NCBI GenBank assembly: GCA_003222395.1
Contig: QHWB01000071.1
Location: 1-37,407, forward strand
Direction: 5' to 3'
Source of the DNA: Acidobacteriota bacterium
GTDB taxonomy: Bacteria; Acidobacteriota; Vicinamibacteria; Vicinamibacterales; CAVVIG01
DNA: 37,407 bases
Part shown: positions 16,466 to 32,405 of the stretch, in pieces
How positions within the stretch are numbered: the first letter of the stretch is position 1
Layout of the letters: the number at the start of each line of letters is the position of its first letter
Position numbers and translations under genes: made by a program
The notes under the pieces: generated by a model
Database searches by the model: none
Told to the model about the DNA's origin: nothing
The model's input: the letters and a program-made list of their open reading frames with translations, nothing else

Positions 16466-17488
16466 TCAGATAACCTGCCGCAGCCGCAGCCGCTCGCGCT
16501 CGCCCTGGCTGATTCCCGCCGCCGCGAGCACATCGTCGGTGTGCGCGCCGAGGACCGGCGCGATGCCGCGCGCCTCGATCGTCACGTCTTCAGGCGCCAG
16601 CACCGGCGTCAGGCAGACGTCGGCGTCGCCGAAGAGCGCGAGCCACTCGCGCTCGGTGTGGCTGCGCATGATGGCGCGCACCTCGTCCATCACGCGCATG
16701 CGTTCACGTCCCTCGGCGTGCTGCAGCGCGATGAGGTCGCTTCGGCCCAGCCTCTCGCAGAAGCGTATCCAGAACTTCGCCTCGAGCGCGCCGAGCGCGA
16801 GCCATTTGTTGTCGGCGGTTTCGTAGATCGTGTAGCAGGCCTCTTCCAGATCACCGGTCGTCGGAAACATCGACCAATCGAGCGCGGCGCGCGCGATCGG
16901 CACGTCGACCGAGCTGCCTTCGCCGGTCCGCTCGCGCCGCAGCAGCGCCGCGAGGATGCCGATGGCCGCGTGCATCGCCGCGCCGATGTCGCCGACGAGC
17001 GGACCCGGCGGCGCCGGAGCGCGCAGAAGTCCAGCGAGCGCCTGGTAGTTGATGTCGTGAGCCGCGCGCTCCGCGTCGGGCCCGCTGCGGCCGAACCCGT
17101 TGATCGACGCGCACACCAGCCGCGGGTGGCGCATGCGAATGCTGTCCGGATCGACGCCGAGCCGCCGCGCCGTCGACGGACGAAAGCTGTCGACGATCAC
17201 GTCGCTCCGCGCGGCGAGCGCATCGAGCACGGGCGCGGCGTCGGGCGATCGCAGATCGAGCGTGACGCTCTTCTTGTTTCGATTGAGCATGTCGAAATAC
17301 GAACCGGCCGCGAGACTTCGCATCCCGTCGCCGCCGCGCGGGTCCTCGATCTTGATCACGTCGGCGCCAAGATCGGCGAGCAGCAGCGTCGCGTACGCGC
17401 CGGGGAGCAACCGCGTGAGATCGAGAATCGTGACTCCGTCTAGGGGCGGAGCTTGCTCCGCCCTGTGCGGCGTGGCAGGGTCGACCAA
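16466..17488 (-). CDS. CaiB/BaiF (family III) protein, alpha-methylacyl-CoA racemase-like
   Basis: 340 residues. The N-terminal family motif DGVTILDLTRLLPGAYAT is followed by DLGADVIKIEDP, NRNKKSVTLDL and NGFGRSGP. AHDINYQALAGLL, GDIGAAMHAAIG and ALGALEAKFW match the His-Asp, Asp and Glu positions of alpha-methylacyl-CoA racemase better than formyl-CoA transferase. It would epimerise branched acyl-CoA or move CoA between acids. The only start before the first beta strand is a TTG at 17488 inside a palindromic repeat, so residues 1-16 (including RAEQAPPL) are repeat-encoded. An in-frame TAG lies four codons upstream. Confidence 0.87.
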   Translation of the reverse strand: MVDPATPHRAEQAPPLDGVTILDLTRLLPGAYATLLLADLGADVIKIEDPRGGDGMRSLAAGSYFDMLNRNKKSVTLDLRSPDAAPVLDALAARSDVIVDSFRPSTARRLGVDPDSIRMRHPRLVCASINGFGRSGPDAERAAHDINYQALAGLLRAPAPPGPLVGDIGAAMHAAIGILAALLRRERTGEGSSVDVPIARAALDWSMFPTTGDLEEACYTIYETADNKWLALGALEAKFWIRFCERLGRSDLIALQHAEGRERMRVMDEVRAIMRSHTEREWLALFGDADVCLTPVLAPEDVTIEARGIAPVLGAHTDDVLAAAGISQGERERLRLRQVI

Positions 17489-17500
17489 GGTCGACCCCTA
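17441..17500. repeat. 60-bp composite palindromic element carrying a stop and a start codon
   Basis: Terminal TAGGGG (17441-17446) and CCCCTA (17495-17500) are inverted. Inside are two perfect hairpins: GGGCGGAGC-TT-GCTCCGCCC (17444-17463) and GGGTCGACC-AA-GGTCGACCC (17478-17497). On the minus strand its first three bases are the TAG stop of the permease gene, and the TTG at 17488-17486 is the start of the CoA-racemase gene. The GGGCGGAGC hairpin recurs at 27299-27318. Confidence 0.85.
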
Positions 17501-19000
17501 CGTCGTACGGGCCGGCGCGCCCGAGTGAAGACGGCTGTGCGTGTAGCCGTACGTGAAGTACAGCACCAGGCCGATGACGAGCCACCAGCCGAAGCGGCGC
17601 CACGCTGCTTCGGGCAGGCCAAGCATGATGTAGATGCAGCCGAGCGCCGACAGAATGCAGACGCCCCAGACGAGCGGCACCTTGAACGGTCGCGGACGGT
17701 TCGGCTCCTTGTAGCGCAGGACGAGGACGCCGACGCTCACCAGCATGAACGCGAACAGCGTCCCGATGTTCGTCAGGTCGTAGGTTTCGGCCGCGTCGCC
17801 GATTACGGCCCACAGCGCCACGAACACGCCGGTGATGATCGTCGTCGTCGACGGAATCTTCGTCCGCGGGTGAACCGTTGCCGCCCAGGCCGGCAGCAGT
17901 CCGTCACGTCCCATCGCGAAGAAGATGCGCGGCTGCCCGTACTGAAACACGAGCAGCACGGCCGACATCGACACCGCCGCGCCGAGCGCGACGAACCAGC
18001 CGACGGTCCGGAACCCTGCGAGCTCGAGGGCGCGCGCGAGCGGGTCGGCAACTGCCAGCTCTTTGTACGGCACCATGCCGGTGAGCACGGCGCCGACGAT
18101 CACATAGATCGATGTGCAGATGGCGAGCCCGCCCAGGATGCCGATCGGTAGATTTCGCTGCGGATTGATCGTTTCCTCTGCGGCCGTCGAGATCGCGTCG
18201 AAGCCGATATAGGCGAAGAACACGATCGCCGCGCCCTGGTGAATGCCTCTGAACCCGTTGGGCGCGAACGGCCGGTAGTTCGCGCTGTTGAGGTGCGTCG
18301 CGCCGACCGCGATGAAGATCGACAGCGCGATCAGCTTGATGACCACCATGACGTTGTTCGCCGTCGCGCTCTCGCGCGCGCCGCGCAGCAGCAGCCATGT
18401 GATGACCAGCACGATCGCGAATGCGGGCAGGTGCAGGAGGATCGGAATGCCGGCGACGCGCGGCGCCGTGCTCAACAACCCGTGGATCTGCGGATCGGCG
18501 CTGAGGAGCGCCGTCCGATAGCCGGTCGTCGTCCACGCCGGCAGCTGGACGCCGAAGCCGCGCACCAGCGTGTTGAAGTAGTCGCCCCACGAAATGGCCA
18601 CGGCGACGTTGCCCACCGCGTACTCGAGGATGAGATCCCAGCCGATGATCCACGCGACGAGCTCCCCGAGCGTCGCGTACGAATAGGCGTACGCGCTGCC
18701 CGCCTGCGGAATCATCGCGGCGAGCTCCGCGTAACACAGCCCGGCGAGCGCGCACGCGCCGCCGAGCAGAAGGAACGAGAACACGAGCGCCGGGCCGGCG
18801 CCCGACCGAACGACCTCGCCGTTGGGACCGATCTGTCCCGCCGCCGCCGTGCCGATCGCGCCGAAGATGCCGGCGCCAATCACTGCGCCTATCGCGAGCA
18901 TGATCAGATCGCCTGCGCCGAGCGATCGTTTCAGGCTGTGAAGGCCGTGCGTTTCCTCGACGAGCTCCGCGATCGGCTTGCGCTGGAAGAGTTGCGACAT
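17498..19000 (-). CDS. APC-family amino-acid permease (cationic-amino-acid type)
   Basis: 500 residues from ATG 19000. About 12 or more hydrophobic segments are visible. The first carries the substrate-site motif AIGAVIGAGIFGAIG, and the third and following regions carry AGLCYAELAAMIPQAGSAYAYSYATLGELVAW. FFAYIGFDAISTAAEE and the late PRPFKVPLVWG are typical of the CAT subfamily of the amino acid-polyamine-organocation family. The substrate cannot be assigned. The stop codon is the edge of a palindromic repeat. Earlier in-frame sequence up to 19510 is antisense to the NHL gene and is not used. Confidence 0.93.
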   Translation of the reverse strand: MSQLFQRKPIAELVEETHGLHSLKRSLGAGDLIMLAIGAVIGAGIFGAIGTAAAGQIGPNGEVVRSGAGPALVFSFLLLGGACALAGLCYAELAAMIPQAGSAYAYSYATLGELVAWIIGWDLILEYAVGNVAVAISWGDYFNTLVRGFGVQLPAWTTTGYRTALLSADPQIHGLLSTAPRVAGIPILLHLPAFAIVLVITWLLLRGARESATANNVMVVIKLIALSIFIAVGATHLNSANYRPFAPNGFRGIHQGAAIVFFAYIGFDAISTAAEETINPQRNLPIGILGGLAICTSIYVIVGAVLTGMVPYKELAVADPLARALELAGFRTVGWFVALGAAVSMSAVLLVFQYGQPRIFFAMGRDGLLPAWAATVHPRTKIPSTTTIITGVFVALWAVIGDAAETYDLTNIGTLFAFMLVSVGVLVLRYKEPNRPRPFKVPLVWGVCILSALGCIYIMLGLPEAAWRRFGWWLVIGLVLYFTYGYTHSRLHSGAPARTT

Positions 19001-22225: not shown

Positions 22226-22960
22226 TCATCTTGCAAAATGAGTTTGTTCTTCGGGCGGAGTGACTGCGCCCATCCTGCGAAGAATCAGCTGCTGACGTCG
22301 AAGCAGACGCGTGCTCGGACGCGCCGGATTGAGCAACCGCGGGTTGATGATTGCACCGGCGAGAAGCGCCGACTCGATCGGTCCGAGCTCGGACGCCGAC
22401 GATCGAAAGTAGACGCGCGACGCCGCTTCGGCGCCCCAGATGCCATCGCCCCATTCGATGACGTTGAGATAGAGCTCGAGAATGCGCGCCTTCTTCAGCT
22501 CCGCCTCGAGGCGGCGGGCGATGATGAGCTCCCGCAGCTTCCGCAGCGGATTGCGCGACGGCGACAAGTACAGGTTCTTCGCGAGCTGCTGCGTAATCGT
22601 GCTCGCGCCGCGCACGAAGCGCCCGCGCGTCCAGTCGATGCCGATCGATTCCTGGAGCTGCTCGAGGTCGACTCCCTCGTGCTGCCAGAACGCCGAATCT
22701 TCCGCGAGCAGCACCGCGCGCTTGAGATCCGGCGAGATGCGCGCGTACCTCGTCCACCGCTGCAGATGCCGCGGCGTCCTGGCGGCCGCGCTCGCTTCGC
22801 GCGCGCGCAGTTCCATGAACGCCGTCGTCGAAGGATTGGTAGTTTTCAACGCCCGGACGTCGGGCAGCGTGAGGTAGGCGTACGCGAACAGCGCGAACCC
22901 AATTGCCGGAACCGCGAGGAGAGCTCTGAGAACATAACGTCCGGCTCGAGCCGGAGTCAT
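22226..22960 (-). CDS. mtgA: Monofunctional biosynthetic peptidoglycan transglycosylase
   Basis: 244 residues. A single N-terminal membrane segment (about 10-31) precedes the glycosyltransferase-51 domain: catalytic E87 in LLAEDSAFWQHEGVD, then RGASTITQQLAKNLYLSP, RKLRELIIARRLE and LELYLNVIEWGDGIWGAE. It polymerises lipid II into glycan strands at the inner membrane. The ATG shares one base with the TGA of the M48 gene upstream, so they are co-translated. A 16-bp palindrome sits in codons 3-7. Confidence 0.95.
   Translation of the reverse strand: MTPARAGRYVLRALLAVPAIGFALFAYAYLTLPDVRALKTTNPSTTAFMELRAREASAAARTPRHLQRWTRYARISPDLKRAVLLAEDSAFWQHEGVDLEQLQESIGIDWTRGRFVRGASTITQQLAKNLYLSPSRNPLRKLRELIIARRLEAELKKARILELYLNVIEWGDGIWGAEAASRVYFRSSASELGPIESALLAGAIINPRLLNPARPSTRLLRRQQLILRRMGAVTPPEEQTHFAR
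22940..22955. repeat. Perfect 16-bp palindrome in the first codons of mtgA
   Basis: TCCGGCTCGAGCCGGA reads the same on both strands. It lies five bases inside mtgA and is translated as part of MTPARAGR. It could hinder translation by folding over the start, or be another small palindromic insertion. Confidence 0.5.
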
Positions 22961-24474
22961 CAACCCGCCACCACGATCTTCAGACGCTCGCCGGCGCGCG
23001 GCTGATCGTTCACGGCGTGGCCGTTCATAATCGCGAGCGTCGACGCCTTGACCACGCCTTTGCCCGCGCGCTCGGCAATCGCCTGCCACGTGTCGCCGGG
23101 ACGCGCCGTATATAGATCGATGCGGTTGGGGTGAATGCTCTCGGCCTCTGCGCGGGTTATCGGACGAAAGGAATCGAGACTTTTGCCGAAGATCGGCTCG
23201 AGGCGCTGGTACGTCCGTTCGGGCGCGATGCCCGCCAGGAGAAACACGGACCGCTCGTGGACGATGTGCGCGGCGCGAATACCGGCGCGGCCGAAATCCT
23301 GCAGCGTTCCCTCGTAAGTGCCCACGAATGCATCGAGCCCGTTGATCGTCGTGCGCCCGCCGCTCAGCGGACGGAAGCCGGCGCCTTCCATCTGTCGCAG
23401 CGCGACTTCCTGAACGGTACGGCCTGTCGCGCGCTGGATGACCTGAAGCAGCATCACCGGCTGCTCCCCGGGTTCCCTTGCGACGACCTGCGTCTGACCG
23501 TTCGTCACATCCCATCCGGGCGGGAATTCGATCGCGAACCGCAGGTTCGCATGCAGAAACGTGGCGCCGCGCACGACGCCCTGATCCGGGTTGTCGCCGT
23601 AGACGATGCCGTCCATCCGCTTCAGGTATTCATCGTGCTCGACCCTGAAACGTGGCGCGGGGCTTCCAGGTGGCGCGGGGCTTTCAGCCCCGCGCTCGGC
23701 ATCTCGCACGGCCACCTGCACGCGCTGCACGCGATCCTCCGCCGCCGGATGCGTCTGCAGCCAGTTCGGCACCCCCTTGTTGTCGCTCGCCTCTTCGATC
23801 CTTCCGAGCGTCGTCAGCATCTGCGGAATGCCGTCGGGATCCCAGCCGGCGCGCGCCACGTACTTCACGCCGAGGCCGTCGGCCTGCGCCTCGTCGTCGC
23901 GGCTGTACTTCAGCATCAGCAGGCCGAGGCCGCTCTCGCCGAGCTGCGCGAACGGACGCGTCGCCGGCACGAAGATGCTGCCCAGAATGAGCCCGAGCTG
24001 CGCGCCGGTCGATCGCGAGTACTGCTGCGACGCATGACGCGCCGTGACGTGTCCGATCTCGTGGCCGAGCACGCCGGCCAGCTGCGCCTCGTCCTGCAGG
24101 AACGGCAGGATGCCGCGCGTTATATAGATGTAGCCGCCGGGCAGGGCGAACGCGTTGATGGCGGGGACGTCGACGATGGTGAAGTGCCACGGCAGGTTCG
24201 GACGCTCGGAGAGCTGCGCGAGTCGAAGGCCGATGTCGCTGACGTACTGCTGAAGCGCGCGGTCGCCGTAGACGCCCATCTCCTTGCGGACCTCGGCGTC
24301 CTGCGACTGGCCGATCTGGATTTCCTGGTCCTCGCTCATCAGCGAGAACTCGCGTTTGCCCGTGGCGGGATTGGTGGCGCAGGCGATCGCCAGCACGGTG
24401 ATCGAGACGGCCAAACCTGTAGCGCAGCCCTTCAGGGCTGCCCTAGGCGTGAACGTGACGGCCTTGTTTGGCAA
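22960..24474 (-). CDS. M48-family metalloprotease, lipoprotein with C-terminal LysM-like domain
   Basis: 504 residues from TTG 24474. A lipoprotein signal ends LAVSITVLAIAC (C32). The M48 domain carries H138-E139-x-x-H142 (LGHEIGHVTARH) and third ligand E195 (DDEAQADGLG). This is the BepA/YfgC-like group, usually periplasmic and tied to outer-membrane protein quality control. A linker at 260-275 is encoded by a palindromic repeat; then comes a variable domain and a C-terminal LysM-like segment (YTARPGDTWQAIAERAG). Residues about 11-20 (RAALKGCATG) are also repeat-encoded. It overlaps the 3' end of the aminotransferase pseudogene and is coupled to mtgA. Confidence 0.9.
   Translation of the reverse strand: MPNKAVTFTPRAALKGCATGLAVSITVLAIACATNPATGKREFSLMSEDQEIQIGQSQDAEVRKEMGVYGDRALQQYVSDIGLRLAQLSERPNLPWHFTIVDVPAINAFALPGGYIYITRGILPFLQDEAQLAGVLGHEIGHVTARHASQQYSRSTGAQLGLILGSIFVPATRPFAQLGESGLGLLMLKYSRDDEAQADGLGVKYVARAGWDPDGIPQMLTTLGRIEEASDNKGVPNWLQTHPAAEDRVQRVQVAVRDAERGAESPAPPGSPAPRFRVEHDEYLKRMDGIVYGDNPDQGVVRGATFLHANLRFAIEFPPGWDVTNGQTQVVAREPGEQPVMLLQVIQRATGRTVQEVALRQMEGAGFRPLSGGRTTINGLDAFVGTYEGTLQDFGRAGIRAAHIVHERSVFLLAGIAPERTYQRLEPIFGKSLDSFRPITRAEAESIHPNRIDLYTARPGDTWQAIAERAGKGVVKASTLAIMNGHAVNDQPRAGERLKIVVAG
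23652..23697. repeat. Palindromic GCGCGGGGCT element inside the M48 gene
   Basis: GCGCGGGGCT-TTC-AGCCCCGCGC (23673-23695) is a perfect 10-bp-arm hairpin. A half copy, GGCGCGGGGCTT, lies just before it (23654-23665). On the minus strand both are translated in frame as a Pro/Ala/Ser/Gly linker between the protease and C-terminal domains. Confidence 0.8.
24416..24447. repeat. GCAGCCC-TTCA-GGGCTGC palindromic element at the M48 5' end
   Basis: Arms GCAGCCC (24424-24430) and GGGCTGC (24435-24441) enclose TTCA, flanked by CCTGTAGC and CCTAGG. On the minus strand the CTAGG edge gives the TAG stop of the aminotransferase pseudogene, and the hairpin is translated as RAALKGCATG in the n-region of the M48 signal peptide. 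Confidence 0.8.
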
Positions 24475-25302: not shown

Positions 25303-26188
25303 TGAACGTGTCCTCGAATGCGGCGAGCGCGTCGCGAATCGCGGCGACCGCCGCGTCCGGCACGGGCGCGAGCGGCGGCCGCGGCACGCCGACGTCGATG
25401 CCGGCGAGGTTGAGCGCGGCTTTCAGCCCGGGCACGCCGTACGTGGCGCCAAGGATGCGCGCCACCGGCGCGAGCTGCTGCTGCAGCGCGCGCGCCTCGT
25501 CGCGGCGGCCTTCGCGCGTCAGCTCAAACAGCCGCACGCATGCGTGCGGGACGACCGATGCCGGCGCCAGGATGCCGCCGGCGCAGCCGACCGACAGCGC
25601 CGCGTAGAACGTCGACAGCGTGCCGGCGAGCACATGGAAGTTGTCGGGCGTTCCCGACACGAGCTCCGCTATCTGCGCGATATCGCCACCCGATTCTTTC
25701 ATTCCCACGATGTTCGGATGCGTCGCGAGCTGATGCACAGCAGCTGGCAGCAGGTTGACGCCCGTCAGCGCGGTGAAGTTGTAGAGGAGCACGGGCACGG
25801 GCGAGGCGTCGGCGACCGCCGTGTAGTGGCGGACGAACGCCTCGGTCGTCATCTGGTTCTTGAAGAATCCCGGCGTGCGCACGAGCACGAAGTCGGCACC
25901 GTGCTCGGCCGCGCGCTTTGTCGCGCGCACCGCCGCCTGCGTCGACTCGCGGCCGGTGCCGACGATGAACGGGCGACCTCTCGGAATCGCCTCGCGCGCG
26001 GCGACGACGACGCGGTCCGCTTCGAAGTCGTCGAGGAAGACCGCCTCGCCGTTCGACCCGAGCACGACGAAGCCGGCGAGCGGTCCGGCTACCCAGCGCT
26101 CGAGCGCCGCGCGCAGCCGCCGCGTATCGACGCGATCGTCTTCGTCGAACGGCGTTGGAATCGGAGCGAACACACCTGAAAGGATCAT
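25283..26188 (-). CDS. DapA/NAL-superfamily lyase, 4-hydroxy-2-oxoglutarate aldolase-like
   Basis: 301 residues, a complete (beta/alpha)8 class I aldolase. The Schiff-base lysine is K164 in PNIVGMKESGGD and the active-site tyrosine is Y136 (LLYNFTALTG). The GSNGEAVFL motif (about 44-52), GRESTQAAVRAT, and SPVPVLLY resemble eukaryotic 4-hydroxy-2-oxoglutarate aldolase (which makes glyoxylate and pyruvate) more than true dihydrodipicolinate synthase. The next gene is a broken alanine-glyoxylate-type aminotransferase, which would have consumed glyoxylate; this supports the assignment. Other NAL-family activities remain possible. Confidence 0.85.
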   Translation of the reverse strand: MILSGVFAPIPTPFDEDDRVDTRRLRAALERWVAGPLAGFVVLGSNGEAVFLDDFEADRVVVAAREAIPRGRPFIVGTGRESTQAAVRATKRAAEHGADFVLVRTPGFFKNQMTTEAFVRHYTAVADASPVPVLLYNFTALTGVNLLPAAVHQLATHPNIVGMKESGGDIAQIAELVSGTPDNFHVLAGTLSTFYAALSVGCAGGILAPASVVPHACVRLFELTREGRRDEARALQQQLAPVARILGATYGVPGLKAALNLAGIDVGVPRPPLAPVPDAAVAAIRDALAAFEDTFNEPASR

Positions 26189-26201: not shown

Positions 26202-26294
26202 TTTCAGAGAAAAAAGAAAATCTTCTTCGTGTCTTCGTGGCCGTACGTAGCGCGAGGCTTTCAGCCGAGCGTCACCGCGCGTCAGCCGAGCGTC
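26202..26294. repeat. Intergenic repeat cluster including the OppC-type stop codon
   Basis: An A/T-rich stretch with CTTCGTGTCTTCGTGG (26225-26240) is followed by CGTAGCGCGAGGCTTTCAGCC and two 13-bp direct copies of TCAGCCGAGCGTC (26261-26273 and 26282-26294). The second copy contains the stop codon of the permease gene on the minus strand. The 93-base gap to the aldolase gene is almost wholly repeat DNA. Confidence 0.7.
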
Positions 26295-27382
26295 CTCTCG
26301 TACCCTCCCGCGTCCTCGATCGCGAGGTTGAGCCCGAGCACGACGAGGAAGATCGCCGCCGCGGGACTCAGCAGCCACGGAAAGTCGGCGAACACGCGGA
26401 TGTTCGTCGACGCGTCGTGGAGCATCGTCCCCCAGCTCGCGATCGGATCGGGAAATCCGAGGCCGACGTACGACAGCGTCGCCTCGGCGACGATGAACGC
26501 CGGGATGAGCATCGCCAGCTCCGTCGCGACGAAGCCGCCCGCCGCCGGCAGCACATGGCGCACCAGCACGCGCGCCGCGCTCGCGCCGAGCGCCTCGGCC
26601 GCGACCGCGTAGTCGAGCCGCCGTTCGGAGCGGACGATGGCGCGCACGCCGCGCGCGATGAACGGCGCGCCGACGAGGGCGAAGATGCCTGCGAGCAGCG
26701 CGAAGACGACGCGCGGCGCGAGCACGAGCGGCAGCACGGCGCGCAGCGCGAGCGCGACGTACATCGCCGGCAGCACCATGACGAAGTCCGACGTCCGCAT
26801 CAGCGCCTCGTCGAGGGCGCCGCCGACGTAGCCGGCGAGGCCGCCGGCCGCCATGCCGACGAGCATCGCGCCGACAGCTGAGACGAGCGCGAGGCTCAGC
26901 GACATGCGCGCGCCGTACAAGAGGCGGCTGAACACGTCGCGGCCGTAGCTGTCGGTGCCGAACAGCAGCAGCGGCGCGCGCGCTTCGTCCGAGGACTGCA
27001 CGAGCGTCCCGCCGGAAAACCATCGAAGCGGAACCGGCCGACCCCGATCGATCTCGTAGCGCTGCTCCAGCTGGTTGACGAGCATCCACCGGTAGATGTA
27101 CGGCCGCTGGACGAAGCTCACGTGAGGAACGGTCGGCGGCGAGTTCAACAGCCCGGGAAATCGATCGTCCACGGCGTGCGGCGCCACGACCGGCGCCGCG
27201 ACCGCCGCCAGCGCCCAGACGGCGACAATCACGACCCCGATGCTGCGCGAGCTGAAGCGACCTGCGCCCTTGATGGGGCCCGGACCCGCTGTGCGCAGGG
27301 GCGGAGCTTGCTCCGCCCGGCCTGCGCCTTTCAGGCCCGCGATGTGGCGCGGGCCTTTCAGGCCCGTGATGTCCGTACTCAC
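26282..27382 (-). CDS. ABC transporter permease, OppC/DppC type
   Basis: 366 residues from GTG 27382, whose GTGA overlaps the stop of the upstream permease gene by four bases. The first ~45 residues, including TGLKGPRHIAGLKG and RAEQAPPL, are encoded by repeat DNA. Then comes a first membrane segment (VVIVAVWALAAVAAPVVAPH), a periplasmic loop, and a BPD_transp_1 domain with the ATPase-contact EAA motif near EALGASAARVLVRHVLPAA. It would import peptides or nickel-type substrates with the neighbouring permease and binding protein. No ATP-binding subunits occur in the window. Confidence 0.9.
   Translation of the reverse strand: MSTDITGLKGPRHIAGLKGAGRAEQAPPLRTAGPGPIKGAGRFSSRSIGVVIVAVWALAAVAAPVVAPHAVDDRFPGLLNSPPTVPHVSFVQRPYIYRWMLVNQLEQRYEIDRGRPVPLRWFSGGTLVQSSDEARAPLLLFGTDSYGRDVFSRLLYGARMSLSLALVSAVGAMLVGMAAGGLAGYVGGALDEALMRTSDFVMVLPAMYVALALRAVLPLVLAPRVVFALLAGIFALVGAPFIARGVRAIVRSERRLDYAVAAEALGASAARVLVRHVLPAAGGFVATELAMLIPAFIVAEATLSYVGLGFPDPIASWGTMLHDASTNIRVFADFPWLLSPAAAIFLVVLGLNLAIEDAGGYERTLG
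27267..27372. repeat. Cluster of palindromic elements translated in the permease N-terminus
   Basis: It contains GGGCGGAGC-TT-GCTCCGCCC (27299-27318), identical to the hairpin at 17444-17463. Next are two tandem units sharing CCTTTCAGGCCCG(C/T)GATGT, the second with the hairpin GGGCCT-TTC-AGGCCC (27351-27365). All lie between the coupled GTG start and the first membrane segment of the permease and keep its frame open. Confidence 0.85.
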
Positions 27383-28332
27383 TCCGTCACCCGCGGATCG
27401 ACGAACGCGAGCGCGACGTCCGAGAACAGCGTCGCGACGGCGAGGAAGATCGATCCCATGCCGGCGCAGCCTGCGACGAGGTACACGTCGCGCGCGCTCA
27501 GCGCTTCGAGCATCAGCCGCCCGAGGCCCGGCCATGCGGTGATCACTTCGACCGCGAACGATCCGCTCAGCAGCGTGCCGACCACCAGGCCGTACACCGC
27601 GGCAATCGGACGCAGCGCCGCCTTCAGCGCGTCGCGCCACACGACGCGCGACCTCGAGGCGCCGCGCGCCACCGCCGCGAGCACGTACGGCTGGCGGACG
27701 ACTTCGCGCATCGCCTGCGACTGCAGCCGCTCGAACATCGCCGCGAGCGGCAGCGCGATGGCCGCCGCCGGCACGACGAGGTGACGCAGGACGTCGAGCG
27801 CCGCGCCGCCTGGCGGCGCGACCGCCGATCGCATCCCGGAAATCGGCAGCCATCCTGTCCGCGCCGCGACGAAGACAAGGAACAGCGACGTGAGCAGCGG
27901 CGGCATCGAGAGCAGCACGACCGACCCGGCGCGAATCGCGCTCGGCATGAGCCCGCCGTGCCGGCTGCCGACGACGATGCCGAGCGGAAGGCCGACGAGG
28001 GTGGCGAGCGTCAGCGCCGTCAGCGCGAGGACGGCGGTGTTCACGGCGCGCTCGGGAATGAGATCGCCGACCGGACGGTCGTAAAGAAGGGAGTTGCCGA
28101 AGTCGAGCCGCACCGCGTGTGCCACCCAATCGCGGTACTGGACGGCGAGCGGCTTGTCGAGCCCGTACCGCTCGCGCGCCTGCTCGAGACGATCGCGCCG
28201 CGCCCCTTCGAGGCCGAGCGTGCCGCTCGCGAAATCGCCCGGCACGGCGCCGGCCAGCAGCAGCGACGCCGACGACACCGCGACGACCAGGAAGAGGGCG
28301 AACGCGAGGCGGCGGATGATGTAGCGGGTCAA
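27379..28332 (-). CDS. ABC transporter permease, OppB/DppB type
   Basis: 317 residues from TTG 28332. The N-terminus (MTRYIIRRLAFALFLVVAVSS) is a typical first membrane helix of OppB-type permeases, followed by LEQARERYGLDKPLAVQYRDWV and the BPD_transp_1 domain. The EAA-type cytoplasmic loop is ARGASRSRVVWRDALKAALRP. It pairs with the OppC-type permease, with which it overlaps by four bases. It follows the binding-protein gene across a hairpin. Confidence 0.93.
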   Translation of the reverse strand: MTRYIIRRLAFALFLVVAVSSASLLLAGAVPGDFASGTLGLEGARRDRLEQARERYGLDKPLAVQYRDWVAHAVRLDFGNSLLYDRPVGDLIPERAVNTAVLALTALTLATLVGLPLGIVVGSRHGGLMPSAIRAGSVVLLSMPPLLTSLFLVFVAARTGWLPISGMRSAVAPPGGAALDVLRHLVVPAAAIALPLAAMFERLQSQAMREVVRQPYVLAAVARGASRSRVVWRDALKAALRPIAAVYGLVVGTLLSGSFAVEVITAWPGLGRLMLEALSARDVYLVAGCAGMGSIFLAVATLFSDVALAFVDPRVTE

Positions 28333-30614: not shown

Positions 30615-32405
30615 ATGGTTTTCCGCACGAGCCTAGTCTTCGGCACTCTTCTCGTTACCGCCCACGCCGCCGTGGCGGCGCCGGGCGGGGCGCATCGCGC
30701 GCGGATGAGCGCCGATCTGCAGGACCACCTCAATGTCGGGTCGCAGACGATCGAAGTGATCGTCGACGGCGACGCGGCGTCGATCGACGCGCTGGCGGCG
30801 CGCTACAACCTGCGTGTCAGCAAGCGCATCGAGAGCGGCGCCGTGCTGACCGTGAACGCCGGCCAGCTCGCGGCGATCCAGCAGGACGAGGCGGTCGATC
30901 ATCTGTCGGGGAACGTGCGGATCCAGTCGAGCGACGCCGTGACGGCGGAGAGCATCGGGGCGGACCAGGTGTGGGCCGGCTCCGAGGCGGTGAAAGGGCT
31001 GACCGGCGCCGGCATCACGGTGGCGGTCATCGACTCCGGGATCGACACGACGCACGCGGCGCTGCGGGGCCGCGTGATTGCGACGAAAGATTTTCTGGGC
31101 GGCGACGGCCGGGACCTGTACGGGCACGGGACGCACATCGCCGGCATCATCGCGGGGCAGGGCGTGTCGACGCCCGACGGCAAGGATTACCGGGGCATCG
31201 CGTTCGGCGCGTATCTGGTGAACCTGCGGGTGCTGGACGCGACGGGCGGCGGCAGCGTGGCCGACGTCGTCGACGCGATCGACTGGGCGGTGGCGCACCG
31301 CAATGAATTCAACATCCGCGTGATCAATCTTTCACTGGGCGCGCCGGTTCTGCAGCCGTACCGGGACGATCCGCTGTGCGAGGCGGTGGAGCGGGCGGCG
31401 AAGAAGGGACTCGTCGTTGTTGCAGCCGCGGGCAATTACGGGCGGAACGAGCAGGGGCAAACCGTGCTCGGCTCGATCACTTCGCCGGCCAACAGCCCAT
31501 ATGCCATTGCGGTGGGAGCGATCGACACGCAGGGAACGCCGCAGCGGAGCGACGACACCGTCGCGTCATGGAGCTCGCGTGGACCGACAGCGTACGACCT
31601 CCTGCTGAAGCCGGACCTGGCGGCGCCAGGCGTCCGCATCGCCTCGGCGGAGGCGTCCGGGGCCTACCTGCCGACGACGTATCCAGCCCGGCACGTCACG
31701 GGCGACAGCGCAAACGCGTACTTCCAGCTGTCGGGAACTAGTCAATCAGCGGCCGTAGTCAGCGGAGCCGCGGTCTTGCTGCTGGATAACAGATCGATTC
31801 TGAGACCGACGGACGTTAAAGCTGCCATCCAACTCTCCTCATCATTGATGACCCATGAGGGACTGATTGGAGCGGGAGCCGGATCTGTCAATGTGCTCGC
31901 CGCCATCGAGCTCGTTCACGACGGTGAGTTGCCAGGTCAATTGTTGATCGCGAACGAACCAGCGATATCCTCCGGTGTGTTTTCGTTATCCGTGTCTGTG
32001 GCTAGTAACGCGAGGAATCAGTCAATCGTTTGGGGCATTAACGGTAACTCGATCGTTTGGGGCGTCAACGGCAACTCGATTGTGTGGGGTGTCAATGGCA
32101 ACTCAATCGTTTGGGGCGTGAACGGCAATTCGATTGTCTGGGGTGTCAACGACAGCTCGATCGTCTGGGGCGTCAACGGCAACTCCATCGTGTGGAGCGT
32201 CAATGGCAGTTCAATCGTCTGGGGCGTCAGCGGCTATTCCATCGTGTGGGGTGTCAACGCCAACTCAATCGTTTGGGGCGTAAACAGCGCCTCGATTGTG
32301 TGGGGTGTGAACGACAGCTCGATCGTCTGGGCCGTCAAAGACAGCTCCATCGTTTGGGGCATCGGCGATGGCGTTTCTGCGGGAACTGCTGCGCCGGTCG
32401 CATAG
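30615..32405 (+). CDS. Secreted S8 (subtilase) protease with 13 C-terminal SIVWGVNGN repeats
   Basis: 596 residues. A signal peptide (VFGTLLVTAHAAVAAPGG, cleavage about 22) is followed by an inhibitor-like propeptide to about 115. The S8 domain has triad D140 (VAVIDSGID), H171 (GHGTHIAGI) and S376 (SGTSQSAAV), all intact. After ~465 the protein becomes 13 nonapeptide repeats of the form SIVWGVNGN with an invariant Ile-Val-Trp. Codons differ between copies while residues are kept. The first ~375 codons are high-GC; the rest are lower-GC. The repeat tract may form a stacked beta structure or be cut into peptides; neither is shown. Confidence 0.93.
   Translation: MVFRTSLVFGTLLVTAHAAVAAPGGAHRARMSADLQDHLNVGSQTIEVIVDGDAASIDALAARYNLRVSKRIESGAVLTVNAGQLAAIQQDEAVDHLSGNVRIQSSDAVTAESIGADQVWAGSEAVKGLTGAGITVAVIDSGIDTTHAALRGRVIATKDFLGGDGRDLYGHGTHIAGIIAGQGVSTPDGKDYRGIAFGAYLVNLRVLDATGGGSVADVVDAIDWAVAHRNEFNIRVINLSLGAPVLQPYRDDPLCEAVERAAKKGLVVVAAAGNYGRNEQGQTVLGSITSPANSPYAIAVGAIDTQGTPQRSDDTVASWSSRGPTAYDLLLKPDLAAPGVRIASAEASGAYLPTTYPARHVTGDSANAYFQLSGTSQSAAVVSGAAVLLLDNRSILRPTDVKAAIQLSSSLMTHEGLIGAGAGSVNVLAAIELVHDGELPGQLLIANEPAISSGVFSLSVSVASNARNQSIVWGINGNSIVWGVNGNSIVWGVNGNSIVWGVNGNSIVWGVNDSSIVWGVNGNSIVWSVNGSSIVWGVSGYSIVWGVNANSIVWGVNSASIVWGVNDSSIVWAVKDSSIVWGIGDGVSAGTAAPVA
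32022..32372 (+). repeat. Thirteen 27-bp coding repeats (SIVWGVNGN nonapeptides)
   Basis: Units start every 27 bases from 32022 to 32346, counted from each TC(A/G/C)ATC codon pair. Every copy encodes IVW, and most encode SIVWGVN. Third-base changes (ATC/ATT, GTT/GTG/GTC, GGC/GGT) are common between units, which points to old repeats kept by selection on protein sequence. Confidence 0.95.

Follow-up and report, generated by a model that had tools for sequence, protein, structure and literature searches.

GTAG-type REP elements probably inserted in frame after the start of an OppC-like permease gene

An OppC-like permease gene in the genome studied here opens with a run of stacked palindromes, which raises the question of what these palindromes are, how they came to lie at the gene start and whether they belong to the protein. 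The window analysed, a stretch of 37,407 nucleotides, forms contig C36 of a genome (label G000) that totals 7.74 Mb over 118 contigs. OppC leads to 15 named loci, of which the nine nearest are MAGs labelled Acidobacteria or Terriglobia, one of them 'gp6', and the other six are distant. The upstream gene, oppB, ends in ...GACGGAGTGA, and the sequence can be read directly to confirm the first-pass annotation on one point, the four-base overlap between the GTG of OppC and the TGA of OppB. The palindromes make up most of the first 45 OppC codons. The gene begins with GTGAGT, followed by 43 extra codons and then CGCAGCATCGGG; these 129 bp keep the frame, hold no stop and precede the first membrane helix. 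Some 45 palindromic residues ahead of the helix had been described before, and this is upheld for most of them; the earlier limit at 27267 falls about 20 bases short of the boundary at 27248. The features at this junction are the following, with the insert coordinates and the figure of about 43 codons being approximate, as they are set by comparison with relatives.

26282-27382, minus strand: OppC-like ABC transporter permease with a GTG start (BPD_transp_1, 3.7e-19; sequence)
27379-28332, minus strand: OppB-like ABC permease, upstream gene of the operon (BPD_transp_1, 2.9e-28)
27248-27376, minus strand: in-frame insert of 43 codons, TDITGLKGPRHIAGLKGAGRAEQAPPLRTAGPGPIKGAGRFSS (orthologue junctions)
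27344-27370, plus strand: class A REP unit with GTGG tail, encoding ITGLKGPRH on the minus strand (copies, folding)
27320-27343, plus strand: second class A REP, tail lost, encoding IAGLKGAG (read by eye)
27295-27318, plus strand: class B REP with tail GCAG and hairpin GGGCGGAGCTTGCTCCGCCC, encoding RAEQAPPL (copies, folding, tail search)

A further class A REP is present at the 3' end of oppC (26247-26284), and a direct repeat, GACGCTCGGCTGA, runs across the oppC stop codon, so that the stop codon itself may be REP-derived. An AlphaFold model of OppC has a mean pLDDT of 44.7, too low to read any role for the tail.

The units have a GTAG-like tetranucleotide beside a hairpin and measure 24-27 bp, within the 20-40 bp total expected of REPs, with several orientations and phases in use. 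The class B unit places a GGGCGGAGC hairpin and its GCAG tail among the first OppC codons, and the class A palindrome CGGGCCTGAAAGGCCCG sits at 27350-27366. When single-stranded folding is compared with that of dinucleotide-shuffled sequences, 27295-27370 does better than 199 of 200 (z -3.5), as do the individual hairpins at 27344-27370 (z -3.8) and 27297-27320 (z -3.5). The 20-mer at 27299-27318 exactly matches that at 17444-17463, and both window copies encode AEQAPPL in frame in their genes, so the first-pass annotation was right on both counts. Elsewhere in the window, a long reading frame (30615-32405), by eye resembling a subtilisin-like protease, contains a 27-bp tandem repeat (31968-32399) that codes for SIVWGVNGN-like units close to its C-terminus.

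A genome-wide search for the hairpin, which had been proposed earlier, returns 11 copies of the 20-mer, and CGGGCCTGAAAGGCCCG has 31 exact and 19 one-mismatch copies, with no match to the reversed control in either case. The GTRG-tailed class A pattern occurs 372 times (reversed control 0), above the usual REP copy number of >100 per genome. Class B with its tail, at up to one mismatch, does not reach this number alone, giving 32 matches (control 0), two of which are both strands of one hairpin. The tail, GTAG or GTGG, beside the hairpin, the doublets with tails pointing outward and the long arrays together identify the elements, and we conclude firmly that the window palindromes are REP elements of the GTAG type.

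The genome contains a single Y1 transposase match. Its reading frame scores 100.5 bits against model NF047646 (REP-associated tyrosine transposase, RAYT; cut-off 80), and it is flanked by inverted REPs, a setting found here for class A only:

C106, 59066-59383: RAYT tyrosine transposase domain match (profile search)
L042:862-1405: REP array on one side of the RAYT gene, 14.7 copies of a 37-bp unit
L042:1934-2058: REP array on the other side, inverted, 3.9 copies of a 31-bp unit

No transposase in this genome is tied to class B, the sole Y1 match showing no link to it. In a set of 27 family members, matches to the tailed class A pattern occur in G000 (372), G026 (172), G009 (90), G024 (73), G010 (25), G016 (13), G017 (10), G006 (5), G011 and G025 (2 each) and G002 (1), and there are none in the other 16. 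All seven genomes with at least 10 class A copies have a Y1 transposase match, but so do 18 of the 27 overall, so a good number of genomes have a Y1 match and yet lack class A altogether. Separately, G016 has 79 tailed class B matches against 13 for class A, and its congeners G024 and G026 show the opposite balance, which indicates that REP classes grow differently inside one genus.

To see what the oppB/oppC junction looks like in relatives, we laid out 30 orthologue loci, 29 of them readable, as L058 stops before the N-terminus; REP-like stretches were judged by eye. The four-base stop/start overlap is common to 18 of the 30 loci. The comparison bears out the earlier expectation that homologues would lack a segment of about 40 residues: the insert is absent in 27 of the 29, their proteins typically opening immediately with M-x-R-x-x-G or M-x-R-x-G, for example ATGAGCCGCACGCTGGGG in G005. 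It follows that about 43 codons of the window gene are an insertion. Two genomes of one other genus have shorter REP-like N-terminal inserts at the same place (L044 in G026 and L048 in G024); the former is an exact class A REP (CGCTCGCCTGAAAGGCTCGCGCTACA), and the latter is degenerate. Both differ in sequence and residues from the window insert, so the same N-terminal residues are not seen in other genera. A tree of OppB plus OppC (21 rows) pairs this genus with the insert-free genus g6 as its sister (96/93), apart from G000, and having the insert therefore requires at least two changes. Two separate gains are the simplest history; one gain plus losses is a less simple alternative. The relatives searched include no second genome of the window genus.

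How common are REPs inside other genes of this genome? We surveyed 1,232,260 bases (the window, all of C14, C34:80001-220000 and C64:1-400000), a non-random choice in that C14 was taken for its length, the C34 part was picked because it contained a hit, and the C64 part contained hits too. Genes were called with a 7-state model trained on long reading frames, using no annotation, and a site was counted as interior when at least 30 codons from either gene end. The survey yields 105 REP units at 65 sites (reversed controls 0), of which 22 are interior to predicted genes and in frame, four lie near C-termini, 12 cross gene ends and 27 are intergenic. As 88% of the surveyed bases are called coding and 26 of the 65 sites fall within predicted genes, genes are under-represented among REP sites, yet far from spared. 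The OppC site itself is tallied as intergenic, since the OppC start chosen by the gene finder lies past the REPs, and the CoA-transferase site discussed below is tallied among those crossing gene ends. Allowing up to two mismatches put 24 of 57 sites within genes, with one control match in C14 and none elsewhere; this looser definition was dropped, as it took in some likely chance or wrong-start cases. Doubtful examples are an EF-Ts start call, an EAENRALR stretch in a regulator and GLKAALNL at 25409.

Pfam was run on 15 of the 20 interior genes, those from outside C64. The REP lies inside a family match in eight: ComEC (DUF4131), DUF2085, siroheme synthase (NAD_binding_7), threonine synthase (PALP), an alpha/beta hydrolase (Abhydrolase_6), DcuC, a DUF4147 protein and an M20 peptidase. 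In siroheme synthase and DUF4131, the matched stretch is longer than the profile stretch by 17 and 32 residues, near the REP-coded lengths (18 residues in siroheme synthase). Three REPs fall between domains (a P-type ATPase, an S9 peptidase and a CCG protein, where the REP precedes the better-scoring of two CCG stretches), two fall beyond the domain (an M48 peptidase and an ABC ATPase), and two genes match no family. The M48 case is in the window:

22960-24414, minus strand: M48 peptidase gene hosting a REP pair (Pfam domain)
23652-23692, plus strand: class A REP pair, one degenerate, in frame and just past the M48 domain

In the M20 peptidase (L122:3238-4812), two REPs lie in the dimerisation domain with RPNQTPA-like heptapeptide repeats between them, and similar repeats, RSATDG, adjoin a REP in a 967-aa protein (L121:11787-14690). 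At G000:C64:60402-60741 (L201), a predicted 624-aa protein ends in SPERLALPNRGVAAR-like repeats, which are the in-frame reading of eight tandem REPs.

The second window copy of the hairpin, at 17444-17463, lies where two genes meet:

17440-17501, no strand assigned: class B double REP, tails outward (CTAG, GTAG) (tail search, sequence)
16466-17488, minus strand: CoA-transferase family III gene with a REP-derived N-terminus (CoA_transf_3, 4.1e-81)

Here, the GTAG tail supplies the TAG that ends the upstream reading frame, whose product looks transporter-like by eye. The doublet loop holds a TTG; ahead of codon 27, itself within conserved sequence, the CoA-transferase frame has no other ATG, GTG or TTG. 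Judging from the sequence, the element likely gives the CoA-transferase its TTG start and first codons. By eye, G026 shows a decayed class B doublet there, similarly placed and oriented, and G024 and G016 have a different palindrome upstream of an ATG.

Siroheme synthase provides another recurrent site. In an alignment of 19 sequences including G000, one loop carries REPs, as judged by eye, in G000, G017, G026 and G024. G016 has a short stretch there that may be a remnant, and G019 has a longer stretch, seen at the alignment level. Nothing REP-like was seen by eye in G020, G010, G009 and the other aligned rows. Among further loci, G005 has palindromes in this loop whose sequence differs from the G000 ones (L218, G005:C160), and the G025 locus ends at a contig end. 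G000 and G017 have a 52-bp doublet at the same position that is 43/52 identical as it lies and 51/52 identical after one copy is reverse-complemented, while the flanking 60 nt are 67% and 58% identical. This opposite orientation reflects either independent insertion of the same element or in-place inversion with unusually slow change.

More than one genus thus has REPs at the siroheme synthase loop, the oppB/oppC overlap and the CoA-transferase start, and at all three shared sites the REPs differ in type or orientation between genera. Such recurrence would fit RAYT-driven elements that return to the same nucleotide positions in genes, making these true insertion hot spots and the REPs portable peptide inserts and donors of start and stop codons. 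The S9 peptidase insert, however, is unshared, with no counterpart found in the G017 orthologue or in any of 11 aligned relatives, and this counts against general hot spots; we regard the idea as tentative and rather doubtful. If it were true, elements open in several frames and both orientations would shape protein evolution across genera.

The reading that we consider probable for oppC is that three clustered REPs, two of class A and one of class B, together with degenerate palindromic sequence, inserted right after the oppC start at the overlap with oppB and kept the frame. Since the 129 bp hold no stop, the operon would still make its permease, lengthened by about 43 residues ahead of the first membrane helix. 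The RAYT on C106 would mobilise, or would once have mobilised, class A REPs as single-stranded hairpins. REPs would insert widely and survive where least harmful, between genes, at gene ends or, length and frame permitting, in tolerant loops or tails. As to movement, what the comparison shows is occupied and empty orthologous sites. The insert would presumably be neutral for the permease. That it is translated is suggested by its frame, the start position and analogy with the interior cases.

The main competitor, which we judge unlikely, holds that the cluster is an untranslated intercistronic spacer, with ribosomes restarting at the internal GTG at codon 51 and the palindromes, if active, working as RNA structure. 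The gene finder did prefer this start (27232), and PMC3733652 argues that many N-terminal REPs are extragenic, lying upstream of the true start, and warns of misplaced starts. The earlier description of the OppC start as well fixed is therefore likely to hold but is not proved. Codon 51 is the only in-frame start between codons 1 and 66, but it sits inside the first hydrophobic stretch, past RSIG, which aligns with the orthologues' starts; initiation there would lose this basic R-x-x-G beginning and would have just a weak GGGG ahead of it. The frame is also open across all 129 bp, and other genes of this genome have REPs inside domain matches. It is far less probable that the segment is an old functional part of the permease family, palindromic by chance. 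L053 and L061 do have N-termini about 10-17 residues longer, with no recognisable REPs, but 27 of 29 orthologous sites are empty, the units recur genome-wide in unrelated genes, and the other genus's inserts differ in sequence; a family-wide ancient N-terminus was accordingly rejected. Least credible of all is true kinship with the palindromic elements of Rickettsia, rejected on tag and size. The likeness drawn by the first-pass annotation survives as far as behaviour goes, with repeated palindromes inserted in frame in unrelated proteins (translated, in our genome, by inference) in an unrelated lineage. The elements themselves are GTRG-tailed units of 24-27 bp with a RAYT, whereas those of Rickettsia are about 150 bp with a conserved peptide (PMC10969869, available part) or are REP-sized types with CGTC tags and, in the portion of PMC3733652 available, no dedicated transposase.

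The closest match is instead the intragenic GTAG REPs of PMC3733652 (2013), whose available text describes them within genes in a number of species, Opitutus terrae having the most, N-termini included, with tails supplying TAG stops and one pair at about the same site, in recB of two Xanthomonas species. Our elements share the GTAG/GTGG tail, similar hairpin length, doublets, clusters, intragenic positions including N-termini, TAG stops from the tail and REPs at about the same site between species. They differ in coming from an apparent acidobacterium (that text names Acidobacteria only for transposases with other terminal repeats), in showing occupied and empty orthologous sites side by side, in having a site where two genera carry one and the same element in opposite orientations and in probably also giving a start codon, a term absent from the main text of PMC3733652 as available. 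RAYTs flanked by inverted REPs were described in PMC2817692 (2010); the RAYT-type protein between inverted REPs at L042 is similar as far as the accessible part of that paper goes, except that its flanks are arrays of about 15 and 4 copies and that the RAYT is known here by sequence.

Intragenic REP insertion is thus already known in other bacteria, and the comparative detail here is unusually clear; in the one open-access library searched, we found no earlier description of REP insertion into reading frames in this lineage. The new details are the REP-like inserts at the same OppC junction in two genomes of another genus, the 52-bp siroheme synthase element in opposite orientations and the element at 17440-17501 as stop donor and likely start donor. 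REPs in this genome enter reading frames on a large scale, with 22 of the 65 sampled sites, about one in three, being inside genes, and if the non-randomly sampled stretches are typical, there would be roughly 140 interior REP sites genome-wide. Since related genera offer both occupied and empty sites, what becomes of such insertions can be put to the test.
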